Assembly: GCA_029256575.1 (NCBI GenBank)
Contig: JAQSXR010000023.1
Coordinates: forward strand, 62,001 to 126,000
Reading direction: 5' to 3'
Source: Clostridiales bacterium
GTDB lineage: Bacteria; Bacillota; Clostridia; Lachnospirales; JAQSXR01
Length of the DNA stretch: 64,000 nucleotides
In this document: piece by piece, positions 38,730 to 51,437 of the stretch
How positions within the stretch are numbered: the first letter of the stretch is position 1
Layout: the number at the start of each line of letters is the position of its first letter
Position numbers and translations under genes: made by a program
The notes under the pieces: model-generated
The model's database searches: none
What the model saw: only the letters and a program-made list of their open reading frames with translations
What the model was told of the DNA's origin: nothing

Positions 38730-39662
38730 TTATATTATTAGCATTAAGAGCGGAACGGTTATAAGTGATAAAATAGTTGTTACAAAAACGCATTTCGAAG
38801 CAAAATCTACATCCGCATTATATTTAGCGGCAAGTAATGCTGTGCTAGTTCCAACAGGCATCGCTGTTAGTACAAGTGCAACTCCTGAAATTGTTGGACT
38901 CAAATCAAAAAATGAGATAATTCCAATTGTAAGTAATGGAAGTAAAAGTAACCGGACTCCCGCAACATAAAAAACACTTTTATCAAATATCGTTTTAATA
39001 TCTACGTCTGCAAGGATCGCTCCAATCACAATCATTGAAATTGGAGATACACTGTTACCAATATTTTGAATCGAATTATTAATAAAATCCGGTAGTTCAA
39101 TTTGTAATATACTCCGGAGCAAGCCAAGTTCTACTGCGATTATGTTGGGGTTTAGAAGTACACTCTTCCATTTTGTTTTAGTATCTGTTTTCGTAAATAA
39201 AGAAATACCTGCGGACCACATAAAAATCCGATTTGGAATTAGAAAGAAAGAAGCATAAAACAAGCCCTTTTCTCCAAATATTTCATATGATATTGGTAAC
39301 CCTGCAAATCCCGCATTATTTATCAGAGTTCCATACTGCATTATGCTTCTCTTTTCAAAAGGATACTTCCTATAAAGTAATTTACCAAGTACCATAGCGG
39401 CAATACAAATGCTAAAAGCTATCCCTATAATTATGCTTGCCTTCTTAATCACATCCATTGTTATTACTTGCCTATAAGAATTAAATATCATGCATGGCAT
39501 TAGGATTCCTAGTACAAAATCAATGTATTTTTGTTGATTCTCTTTCGTAATTATAGATATCTTTTTTGCATATACCCCTACTAATATATAAATAAATAGT
39601 ACCATTTGGATGCTTAATAATTGTATAAAATAATCCACTATGTCACATATTCCTCTCTGCAC
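38730..39662 (-). CDS. AEC family permease
   Basis: An auxin-efflux-carrier-type transporter (AEC family), about 302-310 residues with ten hydrophobic segments and an internal repeat; GTLINNAGFAGLPISYEIFGEKGLFYAS and LTAMPVGTSTALLAAKYNAD are characteristic halves. AEC permeases carry organic anions such as malate. Start uncertain: GTG 39662 lies only 5 nt after the regulator stop; GTG 39638 has AGAGAGGA about 12 nt upstream. It follows the PrpR-like gene and may belong to the hexarate locus. Confidence 0.85.
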   Translation of the reverse strand: MQRGICDIVDYFIQLLSIQMVLFIYILVGVYAKKISIITKENQQKYIDFVLGILMPCMIFNSYRQVITMDVIKKASIIIGIAFSICIAAMVLGKLLYRKYPFEKRSIMQYGTLINNAGFAGLPISYEIFGEKGLFYASFFLIPNRIFMWSAGISLFTKTDTKTKWKSVLLNPNIIAVELGLLRSILQIELPDFINNSIQNIGNSVSPISMIVIGAILADVDIKTIFDKSVFYVAGVRLLLLPLLTIGIISFFDLSPTISGVALVLTAMPVGTSTALLAAKYNADVDFASKCVFVTTILSLITVPLLMLII

Positions 39663-39667
39663 GGTTT

Positions 39668-41528
39668 TTATTCATCAAATTTATTAGAAATACCGTACTT
39701 TTTCATATGTCTCCACAAAGTTGTCTTACTAATTCCTAACTCCTGAGCTGCCTGAGCTCGATTTCCGTTATATTTTTCTAGAATTTCGGAAATCGCTAAT
39801 GCCTCTTGATTCTTATAAACAACTATTTTTTCTCTGCTATTTTGTTGATGAATAATTGGATATAAATCATTCAATAAATTCTGAATAAAAATCTCATCAA
39901 GAACTCGATGCGTAGCTGTTAGTATCATTCTTTCACAAAAGCTTTCTATCTGTATCAAATTTCCGTACCATGGGTATTCCATTAAAATCTTTATCGCACC
40001 CTTTGTTAACACATGATATCTAGAATATACTTCACAATATGACTTAATAGCTGTATTCAATATGTGTTCTAAATCCTCATGCCTATTTCGCAAAGGTGGT
40101 AATTCAATCGTTAACCCATTCAGTAAATAATATAAATCCTCTCGAAACAATCCCTGTTGCACTAAAATACTAAGATTCTTCGTTGTTGTCGCAATGATTC
40201 TTACATCCACACTCATTGTCTTTACGATGTCATTTCGAATCACTGATTTATATCGAATTACTTTGTACAGCTTATATTGGCTGCTCATACTCATTTTATC
40301 AATCTCACTAATTAATACTGTCCCATTATTTGCAACTGCGAAGGCTCCCTGTCCCTTTTCATCGGAGGATTCTTTCAGTGGATTACCAAACAGTACTTCA
40401 CTCTGCATTTCATCATTGATTCCATTACAATTCACCGTAATATATGGTCCATTTTTAGACAAACTATTATTATGAATACTTTGAGCGAATAAATCTTTCT
40501 CTGTTCCAATCTCACCATAAATAAGAACCGGACTCTTTGACCACGCATATACTTTTGCTAATTCTATGCATCTTTGCATTTCCTTTGACATTCGAGCAAT
40601 ATCTTCAAAGTTCCCTTTCGCAATATAACCATACAAATAACGTTCACGTAAAATATCAGCTTCTACCTGTTTCATTTTCTTCATTTTATGACATGTTAAG
40701 ATTGCACTATCGATACTTCCTTCTACTTTTATTGGCGCAATTATGACCACAAGTGCTATATTATTAATATGAATAAATGAAGAATATATTTCTTTTCCTT
40801 CTTGTAGTATATTCTCAATAATCTTAATATCTATTTCCTTTATGACTTCTGTTACTGGTTTCCCAATAACATCTTTTGATTTTTTCCCCAAAATTTCTTC
40901 CATGATACGGTTCATAATAATGATATTACCTTGTTGATTCATTTTAATAATTCCACTGAAAGAATAGTCAAGCAAGGTCTCAAGCTGTGCAAGCTTCTCT
41001 AATTGAATCTTCTGTTGATGACAAAAATAAAGACGGAATGCCGGCACTCGCAGCTGCAGTGATTGCAGTGTCCCCACCAATAATAATATCCACATGATCT
41101 TGTATTGCTTGTTGAATTGCTATCTGAAGTTTTTCTACATCAGACGCTAAGTAGGTTCTAATGTCAACATTATAAATTGAATTAAAATATGTCATATCAC
41201 AAAACATATTACTAAATCCTACAACAGCTATTACCGGTCTCTTTTTTGTTATTATCTTCTTTGCTTGTGTTATTAATAAACCCATTTCTTGACCTGTTAA
41301 AGTAATCTCAACTACTGGAATATTCGTATAATACTTAATTAGCGATGCTTGATATCCTCTAGCTATAATAATATTCGTTCCTTTTGCTAAAGCACTTCTA
41401 GCCTCACTAATCGTATCAGCTGTTTTAATTTGTTTCATTTCATTTATATGATATTCTTCAGACTGTAATATGTTATGTGCTTGGTAAAGCATTTCTTCTC
41501 TGGGTACAAACAATGTAATTAGTGACAT
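39668..41528 (-). pseudogene. PrpR-like sigma54-activator-type regulator, split by a frameshift
   Basis: The first frame (ATG 41528, AAAGGAGAA site) encodes a PrpR_N ligand domain up to SSTEDSIREACTA and a stop at 40980. The second frame, overlapping it, continues QLEKLAQLETLLDYSFSGII (PAS domain), an AAA+ domain and a Fis-type helix-turn-helix (NRAQAAQELGISKTTLWRHMKKYGI) to 39668. Relatives read both parts as one protein of about 630 residues with a short linker, so a small deletion or frameshift lies near 41000. The AAA+ domain is itself degenerate: Walker A is GEIGTEKD, Walker B TVLISEID, and GAFTGA is absent. It follows tctA and is probably the former regulator of the hexarate operon. Confidence 0.8.
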
Positions 41529-41609: not shown

Positions 41610-43091
41610 TTATACTTTTATAGTCTGCTTTTTGGCTTTACGATTATCATAGTAAGCGTAAGCTAGTGAAATGAATATTAGACCCCAGATGACCCAACCA
41701 ATTGGTCTTGAGAAGAATATTGATAAATTTCCACCTGAACCTTTTAATGAATCTATGAAATATTTCTCTAAATCGCGTCCTAAAATAAACCCTATTAAAT
41801 AAGGGGTAACTGGTATTCCAAATTTTATAAATAAATAACCTATAATACCGAATAATAATAGTGTCCATACATCAAACATGTTTCCATTTCTAGAAGCATA
41901 AGCACCAACGATACACATTATGATAACAACTGGATATAATCTATTCTTTGGTATTTTAATGATATTGGCAATATATTTAACCGGATAAAACATAACTAAA
42001 AACATTATAATGTTACATATTAGTAATGCAAATAGCATAGTGTTCCATATCCCAGGATTTTGTGTAATAAATAGTGGCCCAACTTGGATCCCTTGTAACA
42101 TAAAGGCCCCAATTAATACTGCTGTGGTACTGTCTCCAGGAATTCCAAGTGATAAAAGTGGTACCAATGCTCCACCTGTTAATCCATTATTTGAAGACTC
42201 ACTTGCAACTAAGCCTTCTACTGCTCCTGTTCCTAATTTCTCTGGTTCTTTTGAGAAACTTTTTGCTTGAGAATACGATAACAAGGATGCAGCGCTTCCT
42301 CCAACTCCCGGTAATATTCCAATAAAAGTTCCAATTGACGAAGATCGGATTAGGTTAACTAATTGACCTTTAAAATCGCTAAATTTAAATTTCTTTGCTT
42401 CTTCTCCCAATTTAGTCGGCTTGACAATGGACTTTTTCATTCCACTCTCTGCTTCCATTAATACTTGTGAAATAGCAAACAGACCTATTAAAACCGGAAG
42501 TAATTGGAATCCACTTAACATGTCCATTTTAAACATCGAAGGAACCAGCCTAAGTTTTTGATTATCCGCAAAAGTTCCTGCTAATGCAGTTAATACTCCT
42601 AAAAATCCTGCAAAAATACCCTTTGTCATATTTCCTTTTGACAATGCTGCAATAACCGTCATTGCAAATAAAATAATTAAAAACTTTTCAACTGCAGAAA
42701 ATTTAATAGCCAAAGCAGCTAGAGGTGGTGTAAATAGCCACAATACAAGCAAACTAAAAATACCTCCAAATAAAGATGATACTATACCTATTCTAAGCGC
42801 ACGTACTCCTTCACCTCTTATTGCCATTGGATGACCATCAAACCCAGTTGTTATTGAGGATGGTGTCCCTGGAATATTAATTAAAATCGCTGGTACTAAA
42901 CCACCACTGATACCACCTACATACAGACCTAATAATAAATACATTGAAGTAGTTATGTCGTATGCATAAGTAAGTGGTAAAAATATTGCTATAGCCATTG
43001 TAGCAGTCATTCCAGGAAGAGCACCAAATATTATACCAATGACAACTCCAACCGCTGCCACAACAAATTGTAATAAACCGAATACAATCAT
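41610..43091 (-). CDS. tctA: Tripartite tricarboxylate-type transporter, large membrane subunit
   Basis: TctA family permease, 493 residues with about 12 hydrophobic segments. The two family signatures are visible: GALPGMTATMAIAIFLPLTY near residue 23 and GILPGVGGSAASLLSYSQAK near 260; GLVPAILINIPGTPSSI is also conserved. With TctB and the binding protein TctC it forms a secondary carboxylate importer driven by an ion gradient. The genes around it indicate a hexarate (glucarate or galactarate) substrate. It starts 20 nt after tctB. Confidence 0.93.
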   Translation of the reverse strand: MIVFGLLQFVVAAVGVVIGIIFGALPGMTATMAIAIFLPLTYAYDITTSMYLLLGLYVGGISGGLVPAILINIPGTPSSITTGFDGHPMAIRGEGVRALRIGIVSSLFGGIFSLLVLWLFTPPLAALAIKFSAVEKFLIILFAMTVIAALSKGNMTKGIFAGFLGVLTALAGTFADNQKLRLVPSMFKMDMLSGFQLLPVLIGLFAISQVLMEAESGMKKSIVKPTKLGEEAKKFKFSDFKGQLVNLIRSSSIGTFIGILPGVGGSAASLLSYSQAKSFSKEPEKLGTGAVEGLVASESSNNGLTGGALVPLLSLGIPGDSTTAVLIGAFMLQGIQVGPLFITQNPGIWNTMLFALLICNIIMFLVMFYPVKYIANIIKIPKNRLYPVVIIMCIVGAYASRNGNMFDVWTLLLFGIIGYLFIKFGIPVTPYLIGFILGRDLEKYFIDSLKGSGGNLSIFFSRPIGWVIWGLIFISLAYAYYDNRKAKKQTIKV

Positions 43092-43110: not shown

Positions 43111-43521
43111 TTATGGTAATGTTACATTAAATACAAATCCAAAGATAAACCACAGAATAACAGATGTCACCACTGATACAATTATTGATACAATAACAGA
43201 TTTTCTTTCTTTTGTTGCTGCATAAAGTAAATTGAATAATGTAACAAATATTATACTAGCCGTTAAAAATCCTATTATATCCATAAATATTATATATAAG
43301 ATAAATAATACTATAGTGCCATAAAACTTTAACTTATCATAGTTTTCTTCAAAAAACCTCTTATTTTTCAGACTGATTATCGGTTTCTTTTCCTTTTTAG
43401 CTTTCATAACTCTTTGTAATAGCATTATCACAGCTAATATAATTAGGATCCCAATAATAATCTTTGGAAAAACAAGATGAGACTGTGAATATACTATCTT
43501 AACTCTAAAAAAATCAGCCAT
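43111..43521 (-). CDS. tctB: Tripartite tricarboxylate-type transporter, small membrane subunit
   Basis: TctB family protein, 136 residues with four hydrophobic segments (about 15-35, 65-85, 88-105, 110-132). Sequence conservation in the family is low; the assignment rests on size, topology and the position between tctC and tctA. Ribosome site TTAGGAGG. Confidence 0.88.
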   Translation of the reverse strand: MADFFRVKIVYSQSHLVFPKIIIGILIILAVIMLLQRVMKAKKEKKPIISLKNKRFFEENYDKLKFYGTIVLFILYIIFMDIIGFLTASIIFVTLFNLLYAATKERKSVIVSIIVSVVTSVILWFIFGFVFNVTLP

Positions 43522-43619: not shown

Positions 43620-44648
43620 TTATTGTACAGTTAAATCATCTAAAGATGGAGCTGATTTTATCAAAGCATCTAAACTATCTCTTTTAGCAATAATATATGT
43701 TTTCGCTTCAGCTGAAGGCATATACGCTGCTTGGTAAGTTAACTTTGCCATATCATCTATAAATGCTTGATCTTCACAGATAGCTTTTACTGCTACATCT
43801 AATTCATCAACTAGTTCTTGTGGTGTTCCCTTTGGTAAATAAACAATGAAGTCTTTTGAGAATACAAATGGTTCACCATTTAATGTAACGCCTTGTTCAG
43901 CAAAAGTTGGTACATCAACGCCTTCTATTTCATCTAGTATTGCAACAAATTTCATTTTTAATTGAGCATCGATTCCTTCTTCTGTATATTGTTTTAGAGA
44001 AGAATAGTCAGCAAATATAATATCAGCGTTTCCATCCCATAACATTTGAGATTTTTCAGCAGTAGACCCACCAACAACTACATCAATTCTATCCGCAACT
44101 TCTTGACCATAAGTTGCTATAACCCATTCATAATAAGAGATAAATGCGATATGAGAAACACCTCCCGCTTCAACTGCAACACGAACTGATTCTGTTGGGT
44201 TTTCAACTAAGTATTCACATAATTCAACCATATCATTATATGGAGCATCCGCAGAAGCTGCAAAACATGCTCCAGGATTTGTTCCAATACGTGGCCCTAT
44301 AACCATATTTTCAAGTGCATATTTTTGTTCGAATGCCCCAAATGAAATTCCTAAGTAAGTCATATCATGAAAGATCATTATAGTACTTCCATCTGCTTTT
44401 GCTGTTGAGATTGCATCAAGAGCTGGACCTGCACCAATAGCATCTACTTTATTATTACTCTTTAATTCTTTCGCTAAGTACCTGCTTGCTACATCTGCTA
44501 TCATGTATGAGTCACCTGTTGTTGATGTAGAACCAATTACAACTCGAACTCTTTTACCCTCAAATCCAACTTCATCTTTCTTTGCGCAACCCACTAAACT
44601 TGTTATTCCTAATACCATAATTAATACAAGACTTAACACTTTTTTCAT
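43620..44648 (-). CDS. tctC: Tripartite tricarboxylate-type transporter, binding lipoprotein
   Basis: Extracytoplasmic solute receptor (TctC/Bug family), 342 residues from ATG 44648. The signal peptide MKKVLSLVLIMVLGITSLVGC ends in a lipobox (LVGC). The family's ligand loop region includes ATADGSTIMIFHD-like and VGGSTAEKSQMLWDGNADIIF stretches. The start is set by AAAAGGAGAAAAC; the open frame upstream overlaps garD and is not coding. Substrate inferred to be a hexarate from the operon. Confidence 0.91.
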   Translation of the reverse strand: MKKVLSLVLIMVLGITSLVGCAKKDEVGFEGKRVRVVIGSTSTTGDSYMIADVASRYLAKELKSNNKVDAIGAGPALDAISTAKADGSTIMIFHDMTYLGISFGAFEQKYALENMVIGPRIGTNPGACFAASADAPYNDMVELCEYLVENPTESVRVAVEAGGVSHIAFISYYEWVIATYGQEVADRIDVVVGGSTAEKSQMLWDGNADIIFADYSSLKQYTEEGIDAQLKMKFVAILDEIEGVDVPTFAEQGVTLNGEPFVFSKDFIVYLPKGTPQELVDELDVAVKAICEDQAFIDDMAKLTYQAAYMPSAEAKTYIIAKRDSLDALIKSAPSLDDLTVQ

Positions 44649-44706: not shown

Positions 44707-46224
44707 TCAAGTAATCGGTGCCGGATTAAAGATACATAAATCGTTATATAATTTATATTGTTCTGCCCATGGTTTCTTTTTCCCACTTGCTACATCTATA
44801 ATTAAATTAAAAAGTTCAGTCCCAACTTCTGAGATAGTAGCATGTCCAGTAGCAATAACCCCTGCATTCACATCTATTAGGTCATTCCAAGAATCTTTTA
44901 AATTTGTTCTAGACGAAACTTTGATTACTGGTGCTGCTGCCAAACCGTATGGGGTACCTCTTCCTGTCATAAATACCTGTAATGTAATCCCTGAAGCAAG
45001 TTGCATTGGGCCGCAAACAATATCACTTGCTGGCGTTGCTGCATATATCAAACCTTTTTTACTAGGTCTTTCACCAGGAGATAGCACTTCTACAATTGGA
45101 GCCATACCAGACTTTGCAATCGAACCCATTGCTTTTTCAACAATATTTGAGAGTCCTCCTAATTTATTACCTGGCGTAGGATTAGCACTTCGATCCACTG
45201 CTCCATTTTCTAAATATCTATCATACCATTGCATTTCATTTGCTAATTTTTTTACAACTTCCTGGTTTATACAACGTTCTGCTATCACATGGACACCATC
45301 TCGTACTTCTGTTACTTCTGAAAACATAACCGTTGCACCAGCTTCAACTAACATGTCTGACGCATAGCCTGCAGATGGGTTTGCGGTAATTCCAGAAAAT
45401 GCATCACTTCCACCACATTGCATACCAATGCACAATTCAGATAATGGTAATGTTTCACGCTTTCGTTCATTTAATATCTTAAGTTTTTTCTCGGCCATTT
45501 GCATTAGCGCTTCCATCATTGCGTTAAATCCTTCAAGTTCTTGCAGAATAATCACATTTTCTGATGATATTTCAGCTTTCTCTATCAGCATCTCTACCGT
45601 CAATTTTTCACATCCTAATGCGACCACCATAATTTCTCCACCGAAGTTTGGATTATTTACCATATTTTTCAATGCTCTAATCGGAATTATTGCTTCAGGT
45701 GCATTGATTGCAACTCCACAACCATATGCATGGTTTATTGGAACTATATCATCAACATTCGGATATTTAGGTAAAAGCTCTCGCTTCATTTTTTCTACAG
45801 CAACATTTAGTACTCCTGTAACACATTGAACTGTAGTGCTAATTCCTAGAATGTTTCTTGTTCCTGCATATCCACCTTTTTTATTTTTATATCCTTCAAA
45901 GGTTCTAATCGGTGCTTTGGGTAATTCGGTAGTCAGATTTACTCCGAATTTCATATCGCCTACGTCCGGAGGTTGAGGTAATTCGAGCATTTTTTCATTT
46001 ATCCAATCACCTTTTTTAATATCTTTTACTGCATACCCTAGAATAACTCCGTAACGGATGATTTCACCATTTTGAGGAATATCGATAAGTGCAATTTTGT
46101 GCCCTTGTGGGATGTCTTCATTTGCTAAAATATCGTCAAGTACAATGGTTCCTTTTTTGATCATATCCACTGTAATTGCTACATTATCTGTTTCTTTTAT
46201 TTTAATGTACAATGGTGCGTTCAT
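44707..46224 (-). CDS. garD: Galactarate dehydratase (UxaA family)
   Basis: A UxaA-family dehydratase, 505 residues, with an N-terminal SAF domain (about 1-85, IKIKETDNVAITVDMIKKG) fused to the catalytic domain. YAGTRNILGISTTVQC, INHAYGCGVAINAPEAIIPIRAL and GMQCGGSDAFSGITANPSAG carry the conserved Cys and acidic residues for iron binding. The sequence around NAPEAIIPIR is closer to galactarate dehydratase than to altronate dehydratase, and gudD, garR and garK lie nearby. Product: 5-dehydro-4-deoxy-D-glucarate. An altronate activity cannot be excluded. Confidence 0.85.
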   Translation of the reverse strand: MNAPLYIKIKETDNVAITVDMIKKGTIVLDDILANEDIPQGHKIALIDIPQNGEIIRYGVILGYAVKDIKKGDWINEKMLELPQPPDVGDMKFGVNLTTELPKAPIRTFEGYKNKKGGYAGTRNILGISTTVQCVTGVLNVAVEKMKRELLPKYPNVDDIVPINHAYGCGVAINAPEAIIPIRALKNMVNNPNFGGEIMVVALGCEKLTVEMLIEKAEISSENVIILQELEGFNAMMEALMQMAEKKLKILNERKRETLPLSELCIGMQCGGSDAFSGITANPSAGYASDMLVEAGATVMFSEVTEVRDGVHVIAERCINQEVVKKLANEMQWYDRYLENGAVDRSANPTPGNKLGGLSNIVEKAMGSIAKSGMAPIVEVLSPGERPSKKGLIYAATPASDIVCGPMQLASGITLQVFMTGRGTPYGLAAAPVIKVSSRTNLKDSWNDLIDVNAGVIATGHATISEVGTELFNLIIDVASGKKKPWAEQYKLYNDLCIFNPAPIT

Positions 46225-46251: not shown

Positions 46252-46674
46252 TTAGAATTCTAATAAATTAAGTCCTATCATATCACTGAATTTTCTTCCT
46301 ACCTTACCATCTACTACTGTTAATACTACTTCTACCGTAGCACTAACAATCGCATTATTAAGATGGCCTCCATATATTTCATTTGTCAAAACATTACCAA
46401 TTGTAAGGTGCACATGGATGTAAATGTCTTCTTGCTTGCAAGTTATATTTCCTGTTAATGTTAATATTTCGAAATCTCCAGAAAATTGTTTACTAAAATA
46501 TTCTTTCTTTTTCGTATCAAAAATCCCAAGTGAAATATTATCTACAGCGCCAAGTCCACTTACCATACCAAGTTGAATCTTTTCAGTTTCACAAATATTA
46601 GTTAAGGAAGAAATTACTTCATCTCCTTTATCTAATCTTACAAAAATAGCTTGATCAAATCTTCTGTATTCCAT
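46252..46674 (-). CDS. PPC (DUF296) domain protein
   Basis: A 140-residue single-domain PPC/DUF296 protein, a small trimeric fold. RRFDQAIFVRLDKGDEVISSLTNIC begins the domain, and HVHLTIGN with GGHL follows, where His residues resemble a metal site. Such proteins recur in sugar-acid clusters, but their role is unknown; some are annotated as DNA-binding only from plant AT-hook fusions, which is not evidence here. Lies between the DapA-family gene and garD. Confidence 0.83.
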   Translation of the reverse strand: MEYRRFDQAIFVRLDKGDEVISSLTNICETEKIQLGMVSGLGAVDNISLGIFDTKKKEYFSKQFSGDFEILTLTGNITCKQEDIYIHVHLTIGNVLTNEIYGGHLNNAIVSATVEVVLTVVDGKVGRKFSDMIGLNLLEF

Positions 46675-46730: not shown

Positions 46731-47621
46731 TTAGATTAAGTTCATTTCTTTTAATACTTTTCTTAATTTCTCTTTTTGCTCTGGAAGTAGTTCTGCAATT
46801 GGTTCTAAGCATTTTCCAACTTCAAACCCTCTCATTACTAATCCTTCTTTGATTACAGCAGGAAATGTTCCCATATTGGTTGCAATTCTAAGTGGAGCTA
46901 ATTGATACTGAGCTTCAAGAGAACCTTTCAAATCACCTTCCATATACTTATCATATATGTCAGCAGCAATTCTTGGAGCTATATTAGCACATGAAGCGAT
47001 TGCTCCGGTAGCACCATAAGCTAGTCCTGCATATATCAATGTATCTCTACCTAAAAGTACACTAAAGTTATCATTGCCTCTTGTGAGTCTTAAGTATTCT
47101 TCTGTATTCGTGAAGTCTCCCGTACTATCCTTGATACCGACAATATTATCGATCTTAGCTAATCTTGCAACTGTAGTAGGCTCAACCCCAACATTTGTTT
47201 TTGGTTTATTATTATAAATGATAATAGGAAGCTTTGTGCTTGCTGCTACACTTACATAGAATTCATATAGTTCTTCCTGCGTCTGTGATACAAACATCGG
47301 TGTTAATACTGATATTACATCAACTCCTACCTCTTCAGCAATTTTGACAAGTTCTATAACACCCCTTGTCGTAATATGATTTGCACCCGCATAAACAGGT
47401 ACTCTGCCTGCTGCTTCTTCGACTGCAACCTTTAATATTTGTCTTACTTCATCAGGTGAAAAAGCATAAAACTCTCCAGTTGTACCAAGTGGAAAAATAC
47501 CATGTACTCCTTCTGAAATTAAAAAATTTATCATTTGGCGAAATATCGGTTCATTGAATTTACCATCTGAAGTTAATGGTGTAATAATTGGTGGAATGAT
47601 TCCACGTGGTTTAAAATTCAT
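46731..47621 (-). CDS. DapA-family lyase, probable 5-dehydro-4-deoxyglucarate aldolase or dehydratase
   Basis: A (beta/alpha)8 class I lyase of the DHDPS/NAL family, 296 residues from ATG 47621 (GGAGGA ribosome site 7 nt upstream). The pyruvate-type pocket motif GTTGE is at 46-50, the catalytic Tyr at 136 in IIYNNKPKTN, and the Schiff-base Lys at 164 in VGIKDSTGD. Within this operon its substrate should be 5-dehydro-4-deoxyglucarate. KdgD relatives decarboxylate it to 2-oxoglutarate semialdehyde; but the neighbouring garR and garK need tartronate semialdehyde, so aldol cleavage to pyruvate is the better fit. This is an inference from context. Confidence 0.85.
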   Translation of the reverse strand: MNFKPRGIIPPIITPLTSDGKFNEPIFRQMINFLISEGVHGIFPLGTTGEFYAFSPDEVRQILKVAVEEAAGRVPVYAGANHITTRGVIELVKIAEEVGVDVISVLTPMFVSQTQEELYEFYVSVAASTKLPIIIYNNKPKTNVGVEPTTVARLAKIDNIVGIKDSTGDFTNTEEYLRLTRGNDNFSVLLGRDTLIYAGLAYGATGAIASCANIAPRIAADIYDKYMEGDLKGSLEAQYQLAPLRIATNMGTFPAVIKEGLVMRGFEVGKCLEPIAELLPEQKEKLRKVLKEMNLI

Positions 47622-47666: not shown

Positions 47667-48992
47667 TTATCTAACTAAGCAAGGTCTTTTTCGGTCAAAT
47701 TTCCATTCTGGTATCAAATACTGCATACCGATAGCATCATCTCTACCTCCAAGACAATTCTCAATATATAGTTCATTTGCCGCAAGTAATTTTTCCATAT
47801 CAATTTCAATACCAAGCCCTGGTTTCTTCGGAACTTCGATACAACCGTCTACTATCTGTAATGGTTCTTTTGTTAATCGTTCTATTCCTTCTTGCCATAT
47901 CCAGTGGGTATCAATTGCATTGATATTACCTGGTACTGCAGCTGCTGTGTGTGCAACCATTGCAAGTGATATATCAAAATGATTATTTGAATGACAACCC
48001 CAAGTTAATCCAAACTCATTGCACATCTGACCTACACGAACTGATCCTGCCATAGTCCAAAAATGAGGATCTGCTAATGGAATATCAACTGATTGCAAAG
48101 CAACTGAATGAGCCATTTCTCTCCAATCAGTAGCGATCATGTTGGTAGCAGTAGGAAGACCTGTTGCACGTCTAAATTCTGCCAAGATTTCACGGCCAGA
48201 ATATACATCTTCCGCTCCGCATGGATCTTCACAATAAGTTAATATACCGTGCATGTCTTTACATAATTCAATCGCATCCTTTAATAACCAACCACCATTT
48301 GGATCAAGTGTTATGGAAGCTTCCGGAAACGCTTCTTTTAGAGCTCTTATCGCTTTTATTTCTTCTTTCCCTGAAAGAACGCCACCTTTTAATTTAAAAT
48401 CTGAGAATCCGTATTTGTCTTTCGTTGCTTTTGCTAAAGAAACGATTGCTTCTGGTGTCATTGCTTCTTCGTGACGAATTCGATACCATTCGCAGTCATC
48501 ATTTGGATAACTATCATAAGGCAAATCGGTTTTCTTTCTATCTGCAATGTAGAATAAGTAGCCTAACATCCTTACTTTATCGCGTTGCATACCATCCCCA
48601 AGCAAGGCTGCCACTGGTACCCCTAGGTGTTTTCCTAATAAATCAAGGAAGGGTGCCTCTATCGCTGTTACTACATGTACTCCTGTTCGAAGATCGAAGG
48701 TTTGCGCGCCACGCACATCGTCTTCACTTTCATTAAGTGATTTCTTAACCTTAAGTAATGTATTCTTATAATCGCCAATGCTAGTTCCTACTACGAGATG
48801 TTTTGTCGCTTCTAACGCTTTTGTTATTTTTTCACCGCCAGGAACTTCTCCAATTCCTTGGACACCATTACTATCTGTTAAAATTACTATATTTCTTGTA
48901 AAATAGGGAGAATGTGCACCGCTAAGATTAAGTAGCATGCTATCTTTCCCTGCAACTGGGTACACTTCCATTTTTTGAATTGTTGGTGTCAT
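47667..48992 (-). CDS. gudD: Glucarate dehydratase
   Basis: Enolase-superfamily dehydratase, 441 residues (E. coli GudD 446). The N-terminal capping domain is followed by a barrel with FKLKGG (catalytic Lys pair), LDPNGGW and EDPCGAE metal ligands, [10 protein letters not shown], and the His-Asp dyad region [15 protein letters not shown]. It converts D-glucarate (and often L-idarate) to 5-dehydro-4-deoxyglucarate. Second gene of the minus-strand hexarate operon, 35 nt after garR. Ribosome site AAGGCGGG. Confidence 0.94.
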
Positions 48993-49027: not shown

Positions 49028-49912
49028 TTATTTTTCAACTATTACATTCGCCATCTTTTCGTAGTATTTTACAATGCTACAGTGATCTTCTTTTTCATGT
49101 CCGTCAGCTTTTAGCGCTTGCATCATTTCCATAACCTGTGATGTTAATGGAAGTGGAGAACTAACAGAATGTCCTGCATTTAAAGCATTGTTAAGATCCT
49201 TGATGTGTAATTCAATACGAAATCCTGGATTAAATCTTCTCTCTAAAACCATTGGTGCTTTTGCATCTAAAACGGTTGATCCTGCAAGTCCGCCTCGAAT
49301 TGCTTTGTATACTAATTCTGGGTCAGCTCCTGCTTTTTTTGCTAATGTTAATGCTTCTGACATAGCTGCAATGTTTAATCCAACAATGATTTGATTTGCA
49401 AGTTTCGCAATATTACCAGCACCTAAATCTCCTACATAAACTACAGTCCCTGCCATTACCATTAGTAAATCATAATATTTATCAAACAACTCTTTTTTAC
49501 CACCAACCATTACAGAGAGTGTTCCATCAATTGCTTTTGGTTCTCCTCCACTTACTGGTGCATCAAGCATTTCAATTCCTTTTTCTAAAAGCTTTGCTCC
49601 AATTGCTTTGCTTTCCACTGGATCAATTGAACTCATATCAATTAATACTGTTCCAGGTTTTGCAGTATCTGAAATACCGTTTCCACCAAGTGCAACACTT
49701 CTTACGTGTGGTGAATTTGGAAGCATTGTAATAATTAAATCACATTCATTTGCAACTGCAGCCCCATTTTCTACTGCCCTTGCTCCTTTGGCTACTACTT
49801 CATTCACAGCAGCTTCACTAAAATCGCACACAACTAACTCGTGCCCTGCTTTAATTAAATTCAAACTCATTGGTTTACCCATAATTCCAAGTCCTATAAA
49901 CCCTATTTTCAT
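49028..49912 (-). CDS. garR: Tartronate semialdehyde reductase
   Basis: 2-hydroxy-3-oxopropionate reductase of the beta-hydroxyacid dehydrogenase family, 294 residues. N-terminal nucleotide motif GFIGLGIMGKPM, substrate motif DAPVSGGEPKAIDGTLSVMVGG and catalytic Lys in GNIAKLANQIIVG. It reduces tartronate semialdehyde to D-glycerate, which the divergent kinase phosphorylates. First gene of the hexarate operon, ribosome site AAGGAG. Confidence 0.91.
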   Translation of the reverse strand: MKIGFIGLGIMGKPMSLNLIKAGHELVVCDFSEAAVNEVVAKGARAVENGAAVANECDLIITMLPNSPHVRSVALGGNGISDTAKPGTVLIDMSSIDPVESKAIGAKLLEKGIEMLDAPVSGGEPKAIDGTLSVMVGGKKELFDKYYDLLMVMAGTVVYVGDLGAGNIAKLANQIIVGLNIAAMSEALTLAKKAGADPELVYKAIRGGLAGSTVLDAKAPMVLERRFNPGFRIELHIKDLNNALNAGHSVSSPLPLTSQVMEMMQALKADGHEKEDHCSIVKYYEKMANVIVEK

Positions 49913-50226: not shown

Positions 50227-50309
50227 ATATTTTTATTTGGCTTGTTTGTCAATTGAAGCATCCTTGTTTATCCTATATAATTAAATATAAAAATTGGAGG
50301 AATGAAATC

Positions 50310-51437
50310 ATGAAAAAATGTGTCATTATACCGGATTCTTTTAAAGGCACTCTTAGTTCTATAGAGATTTGTGACATCGTTAGTGTAAAAGTAAAAGAAT
50401 TTTATCCCGCGTGTGAAACGATTACAATTCCAATCGCAGACGGTGGTGAAGGGACTGTGGATTGTTTTTTACAGGCAATTGATGCCGACAAGGTAAACGT
50501 TAGTGTAACCGGTCCATATAATGAACTGCTAAATTGTTACTATGCAAGATATAACAATACGGCTATTATCGAAATGGCTCAATCAGCAGGCTTACCTTTG
50601 GTTGAAAACAGAAAAAATCCTGCAATAACTACAACCTATGGGACAGGGCTTATGATCAAACATGCAATAGAAAACGGCTGTACTGACATAGTGATTGGTT
50701 TAGGAGGAAGTTGTACAAACGATGCCGGAGTGGGAGCAGCCTGTGCTATTGGCGTTGATTTTTACGACGACTACGGTAATACCTTTCTTCCAACAGGTAA
50801 TACTTTATCAAAAATCTCTAAAATCGATAATTCAAAAGCAATACAGTTACTAAATAATTGTACAGTTACTGCAATGTGTGATATTGATAATCCTATGTAT
50901 GGAAAAACGGGAGCCGCCTATATATTCAGTCCTCAAAAAGGTGCAGACGATAGGATGGTTTTGGAACTAGACGAGAACCTGAAAGCATTATCCGCAACTA
51001 TAATTGATAACCTTGGAATTGATGTTTCTAATATCCCAGGTTCTGGTGCAGCCGGAGCAATGGGTGCAGGTGTTGTTGCATTTTTTAATGGAAAATTAAA
51101 ATCTGGAATTCATACTATATTGGATTTAATTCAATTCGATGAATTGATAGAAGGTACCGACCTGATTTTTACTGGAGAAGGTAAAATTGACTCTCAAAGT
51201 CTAAGAGGTAAGGTTGTTATTGGAGTAGCGGAACGTGCCTTGAAAAAGAACATTCCAGTTGTTGCAATTGTTGGGGCAATTGGAGAAGAAGCCGAAAAAG
51301 CTTATGATATGGGTGTAAGTTCTATATTTAGTATCAATCGCGCTGCTATTGCATTTGAAGAATCAAGATATCACAGCAAAGAAAATCTTGCCTCAACCAT
51401 TGAGTCTCTTATGAGATTTCGTAAAATATGTAAGTAA
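50310..51437 (+). CDS. garK: Glycerate kinase
   Basis: Glycerate kinase of the GarK/GlxK family, 375 residues from ATG 50310 (ribosome site TTGGAGG). The N-terminus IIPDSFKGTLSS, IADGGEGTVD, GLGGSCTNDAGVGAACAIG and FTGEGKIDSQSLRGKV are the family's conserved blocks. It phosphorylates D-glycerate to 2-phosphoglycerate (or 3-phosphoglycerate in some members), linking hexarate breakdown to glycolysis. Divergent from the garR operon and presumably coregulated through the shared palindromes. Confidence 0.94.
   Translation: MKKCVIIPDSFKGTLSSIEICDIVSVKVKEFYPACETITIPIADGGEGTVDCFLQAIDADKVNVSVTGPYNELLNCYYARYNNTAIIEMAQSAGLPLVENRKNPAITTTYGTGLMIKHAIENGCTDIVIGLGGSCTNDAGVGAACAIGVDFYDDYGNTFLPTGNTLSKISKIDNSKAIQLLNNCTVTAMCDIDNPMYGKTGAAYIFSPQKGADDRMVLELDENLKALSATIIDNLGIDVSNIPGSGAAGAMGAGVVAFFNGKLKSGIHTILDLIQFDELIEGTDLIFTGEGKIDSQSLRGKVVIGVAERALKKNIPVVAIVGAIGEEAEKAYDMGVSSIFSINRAAIAFEESRYHSKENLASTIESLMRFRKICK

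Follow-up and report, generated by a model that had tools for sequence, protein, structure and literature searches.

The question raised by this locus is how 5-keto-4-deoxy-D-glucarate (5-KDG) is cleaved in a gut-type Clostridia bacterium whose glucarate and galactarate genes do not include garL. GarL of E. coli belongs to class II and to the HpcH/HpaI family. The original prediction was that a DapA-family protein encoded beside gudD, garD, garR and garK replaces GarL, and profile searches of the window (the whole 64,000-nucleotide stretch of DNA analysed) agree with this account of the operon: the candidate carries a PF00701 domain and the neighbouring genes match the models expected of them, as follows.

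38730–39662, − strand: AEC-type permease (Mem_trans, PF03547)
39668–41528, − strand: PrpR-type sigma-54 activator (PrpR_N, PAS, Sigma54_activat, HTH_8), in two overlapping frames (40980–41528 and 39668–41095)
41610–43091, − strand: tctA, membrane protein (PF01970)
43111–43521, − strand: tctB-like membrane protein (PF07331)
43620–44648, − strand: tctC-like binding lipoprotein of a tripartite tricarboxylate transporter (PF03401, 25.1 bits, slightly below the cut-off of 27)
44707–46224, − strand: garD, galactarate dehydratase (TIGR03248, 773 bits, above the cut-off of 731)
46252–46674, − strand: PCC-domain protein, between the candidate aldolase gene and garD (PF03479, 105 bits)
46731–47621, − strand: GudL-like DapA-family protein of clade A, predicted 5-keto-4-deoxyglucarate aldolase (PF00701, residues, tree, AlphaFold model)
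47667–48992, − strand: gudD, glucarate dehydratase (TIGR03247, 776.6 bits over the full length, slightly below the cut-off of 828.7)
49028–49912, − strand: garR, tartronate semialdehyde reductase (NF008592 and TIGR01505 above cut-off; 494 bits, cut-off 397)
50310–51437, + strand: garK, glycerate kinase, divergent from garR (TIGR00045, 409 bits, above the cut-off of 168)

The start of garK was placed at an ATG within the listed frame 50253–51437, in which the TIGR00045 match begins at residue 22. For the tctC-like gene, whose product has a lipoprotein-type N-terminus, 44648 is the likely start and the listed frame extends to 44786.

A DapA-family protein in the gud/gar operon

The candidate is encoded by an intact frame of 296 aa that scores 235 bits against PF00701 (DHDPS family; cut-off 22.1), and it is thus not a chance open reading frame. 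PF00701 was the sole domain found, with no HpcH/HpaI domain present, and together with a TIM barrel and the aligned residues K164 and Y136 it places the protein in the DHDPS/NAL (DapA) superfamily. No NCBIfam model was passed: the protein falls just short on the DapA model TIGR00674 (196.8 bits, cut-off 206.15) and far short on the KdgD model TIGR03249 (140.7 bits, cut-off 373.95), so that hexarate use by a DapA-type route is easily missed or miscalled. The Schiff-base lysine K164 lies in a GIKDS motif, and M109 and R192 are further residues considered below. The TPYYN motif of DapA reads TPMFV, and the Gly-Leu-Pro site of KdgD reads Gly-Arg-Asp.

An AlphaFold model built with 12 sequences (pLDDT 87.7) has a DapA-type barrel. 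Its nearest solved structure is YagE (2v8z, TM 0.93, 31% identity), DHDPS structures also being close, and the modelled fold cannot discriminate which reaction the protein catalyses. YagE/KdgA-type 2-keto-3-deoxygluconate aldolases share with the predicted enzyme a DapA-family retro-aldol cleavage that gives pyruvate; they differ in that their substrate is a sugar acid lacking a second carboxylate and in that their sequences are distant from the window protein.

Search of the genome for alternative enzymes

The genome is a 3.11 Mb draft of 64 contigs with a completeness of 95.3%, and the absences reported here are therefore strong but not absolute. No GarL/HpcH aldolase was found in the whole genome: the GarL model TIGR03239 gave zero matches at E 1e-10, and the three weak PF03328 matches corresponded to two pyruvate kinases and PTS enzyme I. 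The lack of an HpcH/GarL-type aldolase, claimed originally for the locus, thus extends to the genome as a whole, and a garL elsewhere in it, named at the outset as a refuting observation, was not found. The same held for 2-oxoglutarate (alpha-ketoglutaric) semialdehyde dehydrogenase, which had been predicted to be absent; the genome contains no gene above the cut-off of the corresponding model. Its only free-standing aldehyde dehydrogenase was considered as the missing partner of a KdgD route and set aside at 362 bits, far below the cut-off of 770.

These absences bear directly on the reading of the window protein as a KdgD-type 5-dehydro-4-deoxyglucarate dehydratase/decarboxylase producing 2-oxoglutarate semialdehyde. 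The KdgD route operates in Bacillus subtilis and many Proteobacteria, and in it water and CO2 are removed from the same imine that an aldolase would cleave. Superfamily and substrate are shared, the KdgD model is weakly matched at 140.7 bits, and DapA-family proteins adjoining gudD are frequently annotated in this way. Reaction, partners and Gly-Leu-Pro-site residues nevertheless differ. The score is far below the cut-off of 374, the KdgD model found no KdgD in the genome, and Gly-Leu-Pro (P194 in Acinetobacter KdgD; PMC13398020) is replaced by Gly-Arg-Asp. A KdgD route would also supply no substrate to GarR or GarK, and alpha-ketoglutaric semialdehyde dehydrogenase above the cut-off was found in none of the 24 genomes that carry a related gene (clades A, B or GudL-type, described below) or garD, that is, neither in that of the window nor in the other 23. 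We regard this reading as very improbable.

A true KdgD (454 bits) was found in one of 300 genomes of the phylum, and its cluster served as a control, though a single one: garD, gudD, a GarP-like carrier and KdgD are accompanied by an adjoining dehydrogenase whose 867 bits exceed the cut-off of 770 of the alpha-ketoglutaric semialdehyde model. The KdgD neighbourhood differs from the window operon in that it has this dehydrogenase and lacks garR and garK. Aldol cleavage is well supported by this difference in content taken together with the lack of GarL, KdgD and alpha-ketoglutaric semialdehyde dehydrogenase in the genome.

Another reading is that 5-KDG is cleaved by an Eda-family KDPG/KHG aldolase and that the DapA-like protein has some other substrate. 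Two Eda-family genes are present elsewhere in the genome (contigs C4 and C37), one of them adjoining a TctC gene and an IclR regulator gene, and in principle they could use the intermediate, which counts against the DapA-family protein as the responsible aldolase. Neither lies within a gud/gar cluster, however, linkage of the DapA-like gene to gudD, garD and garR is tight across genera, and 16 of 18 garD-bearing genomes have a gene of the clade A, clade B or GudL type; cleavage of 5-KDG by an Eda-family enzyme thus seems most unlikely. The Eda-family gene with IclR and TctC neighbours (L140; G000 C4:38564-39130) is probably part of a separate sugar-acid operon.

One further reading, that a second dihydrodipicolinate synthase, biosynthetic in role, has strayed into this catabolic operon, is scarcely credible, the 196.8 bits of the window protein being near the DapA cut-off of 206 but the TPYYN motif having become TPMFV, its position in the tree being far from DapA, and the other of the two DapA-family genes in the genome being a true dapA (355 bits, passing the model) that adjoins a dapB-like gene.

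Comparison with GudL

Replacement of GarL by a DapA-family protein is not a new idea, since a DapA-like protein, GudL, a putative 5-KDG aldolase, was described in January 2025 as occupying the place of GarL in Enterocloster clostridioformis, which lacks the latter (Levy et al. 2025; PMC11775122). Both this protein and a GudL from Fusobacterium complement an E. coli garL deletion on galactarate and glucarate, and complementation is abolished by the substitutions K167A, M110A, M110Y and K194N and weakened by K194A; Arg at position 194 was not among the substitutions tried (PMC11775122). The published GudL clade is delimited by M110 and K194, both stated to be universal (PMC11775122).

The window protein shares with GudL the DapA-family fold, the linkage to garR, a GarL-less pathway, the catalytic lysine and the signature methionine. 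Its M109 and K164 correspond to Met 110 and Lys 167 and its R192 occupies the position of Lys 194, the gene being linked to garR and to gudD and garD in a genome without GarL. It differs from GudL in its identity of only about 38% to proteins bearing the M110/K167/K194 signature, in having Arg for K194, and in a locus that encodes a PrpR-type regulator and, as transporter, one of the tripartite tricarboxylate type rather than the GarABC described in the GudL study. Under the published M110/K194 criterion the window protein is outside the GudL clade.

Judged by its gene neighbourhood, its methionine and the lack of alternatives, the protein very probably functions as GudL does. We put at roughly 0.87 the probability that it is a class I (Schiff-base) DapA-family aldolase, of a lineage sister to GudL, that converts 5-keto-4-deoxy-D-glucarate to pyruvate and tartronate semialdehyde. 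It would thereby do the job of GarL, carrying out the reaction predicted for the same pathway step although the two protein families are unrelated. The aldol cleavage proposed in the original prediction is accordingly favoured by the genomic absences and, by analogy, by the GudL complementation precedent (PMC11775122). Against the aldolase reading stand the loss of the K194 signature to Arg at a site where K194A reduced and K194N abolished GudL function, and the moderate tree support described below.

Three lineages with a shared methionine

Relatives were collected from thirteen loci of named genomes and from matches in two genome sets, 392 from the order and 300 from the phylum. The window protein belongs to clade A (21 rows, 61–100% identity to the window protein, motifs TPMF and GRD), whose members include Blautia, Dorea, Anaerocolumna and Lachnoclostridium. 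Clade B comprises six rows with 40–46% identity, TPMF and either GTD or GSD. A GudL-type group of four rows (L073, L093, L094 and L095; 37–40% identity) has QPMF and GKD, and was assigned through the exact match of three numbered residues rather than through the published E. clostridioformis GudL sequence: L073 has Met, the catalytic Lys and Lys at exactly 110, 167 and 194 of the E. clostridioformis GudL numbering. Clade D (seven rows, 44–50% identity) keeps the Arg and has Phe, Tyr or Ser at the methionine site, and 16 further DapA-family rows form a group that lacks the Met and carries Asn or Ser at the 194 site.

The signature methionine (equivalent to M109) is invariant in clades A, B and GudL and occurs in no other DapA-family row. 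The equivalent of K164 is invariant throughout clade A. At the 194 site, every intact clade A member has Arg (R192 in the window protein), clade B has Thr or Ser, and Lys is confined to the four GudL-type rows. We also noted that the sequence at the catalytic lysine of clade B (L064 and L066–L070) is Lys-Asn-Thr-Ser as against Lys-Asp-Ser, and that in one genome (G036) the clade A gene is broken into two frames (L065, 6284–7182).

In the tree of all rows, a single clade unites A, B and GudL (95/85), B and GudL being sisters within it (99/96), with clade D outside and DapA distant from the window protein. Support for the union of A, B and GudL was 88/69 when long outgroups were left out, and a topology in which A joins the outgroup clade D was not rejected (p 0.16). 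A single origin of the methionine type is therefore favoured rather than shown by these sequences. It is possible, though on balance we doubt it, that at least three deep lineages of 5-KDG aldolase exist, with Arg, Thr/Ser and Lys at the 194 site, and that clade A was recruited separately from GudL and clade B. If the three-lineage reading is true, a K194 criterion would miss most such enzymes in the order.

Clade D was considered as a source of enzymes with the same function and was instead kept as an outgroup because its neighbourhoods lack gudD and garD, several of them containing HpcH-type aldolases and garR-like genes. Near clade D genes (L123, 9137–10873; also L121, L124, L125 and L126) lie genes for TctA, for 2-hydroxyacid dehydrogenases and for an HpcH aldolase resembling GarL, together with a garR-like gene, and these loci look like a different sugar-acid pathway.

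Conservation of the gene neighbourhood

All clade A stretches that were read carry at least one of gudD, garD and garR, mostly as the adjoining gene and often only 4 bases away, and each of the clade A, B and GudL-type stretches read carries at least one of gudD, garD, garR and garK. GarL and alpha-ketoglutaric semialdehyde dehydrogenase were found in none of these stretches. The set of 392 genomes from the order contains 18 that bear garD, and 16 of these also carry a gene of the clade A, clade B or GudL type (Fisher p ~1e-21, with relatedness not corrected); the three types never occur together in a genome. The two garD genomes without such a gene are 79% and 86% complete. None of the 24 genomes carrying a clade A, B or GudL-type gene or garD has a GarL above cut-off (three have GarL relatives below it). 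Clade B genes directly adjoin garD in every genome seen (L064 and L066–L070). In genome G350 (L056), which is 99% complete and has no garD match, 4 bases separate garR from the clade A gene.

The enzyme group is wider than the published signature, and the Arg, Thr/Ser and Lys lineages share pathway genes. A literature search, largely outside subscription journals, found no activity measurement for the Arg or Thr/Ser lineages, and the text of the published GudL census is silent on whether clade A was counted (PMC11775122). If clades A and B are indeed 5-KDG aldolases, the GudL signature should use the methionine and the gene neighbourhood instead of K194, and the known extent of glucarate and galactarate use among gut Clostridia, including Blautia, may widen.

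Predicted reaction mechanism

In this superfamily a lysine forms the Schiff base and a tyrosine acts as acid/base (PMC13398020). In the predicted pathway 5-keto-4-deoxy-D-glucarate, which GudD and GarD both yield, would be the aldolase substrate; its C5 keto group would form an imine with K164, and Y136 would supply the general acid/base function typical of the family. Retro-aldol cleavage of the imine would release tartronate semialdehyde and leave pyruvate; GarR would then reduce the semialdehyde to glycerate, which GarK would phosphorylate. M109 and R192 occupy the sites of GudL M110 and K194, and R192 perhaps binds the distal carboxylate. That a basic side chain (Arg in clade A, Lys in GudL) holds this carboxylate is only a guess, because the site is filled by Thr or Ser in clade B.

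Transport, regulation and accessory genes

The products of tctA, tctB and tctC probably constitute the hexarate importer of this locus, in place of GarABC or GarP/GudP. Several gud/gar clusters of clades A and B contain this trio as well (L004, L005, L013, L058 and L068–L070), and relatives of the AEC-type permease are present in clusters L004, L013, L055 and L058.

The PrpR-type regulator has a broken frame in the window and a single long frame in its relatives; the split may reflect either a mutation or an assembly error. Prompted by the regulator type, we scanned the whole window for sigma-54 promoters, allowing up to 2 mismatches, against 100 shuffles. The window contains 35 matches compared with a shuffle mean of 21.6 and a largest value of 33 (n=100). 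These matches were set aside because they scatter across the window and none falls in the garR–garK gap. The count of sigma-70-type sites in the window was at chance level.

The PCC-domain gene at 46252–46674 may be a component of the hexarate system, since relatives with the same domain (PF03479) directly adjoin the clade A aldolase gene in L055 and L058.
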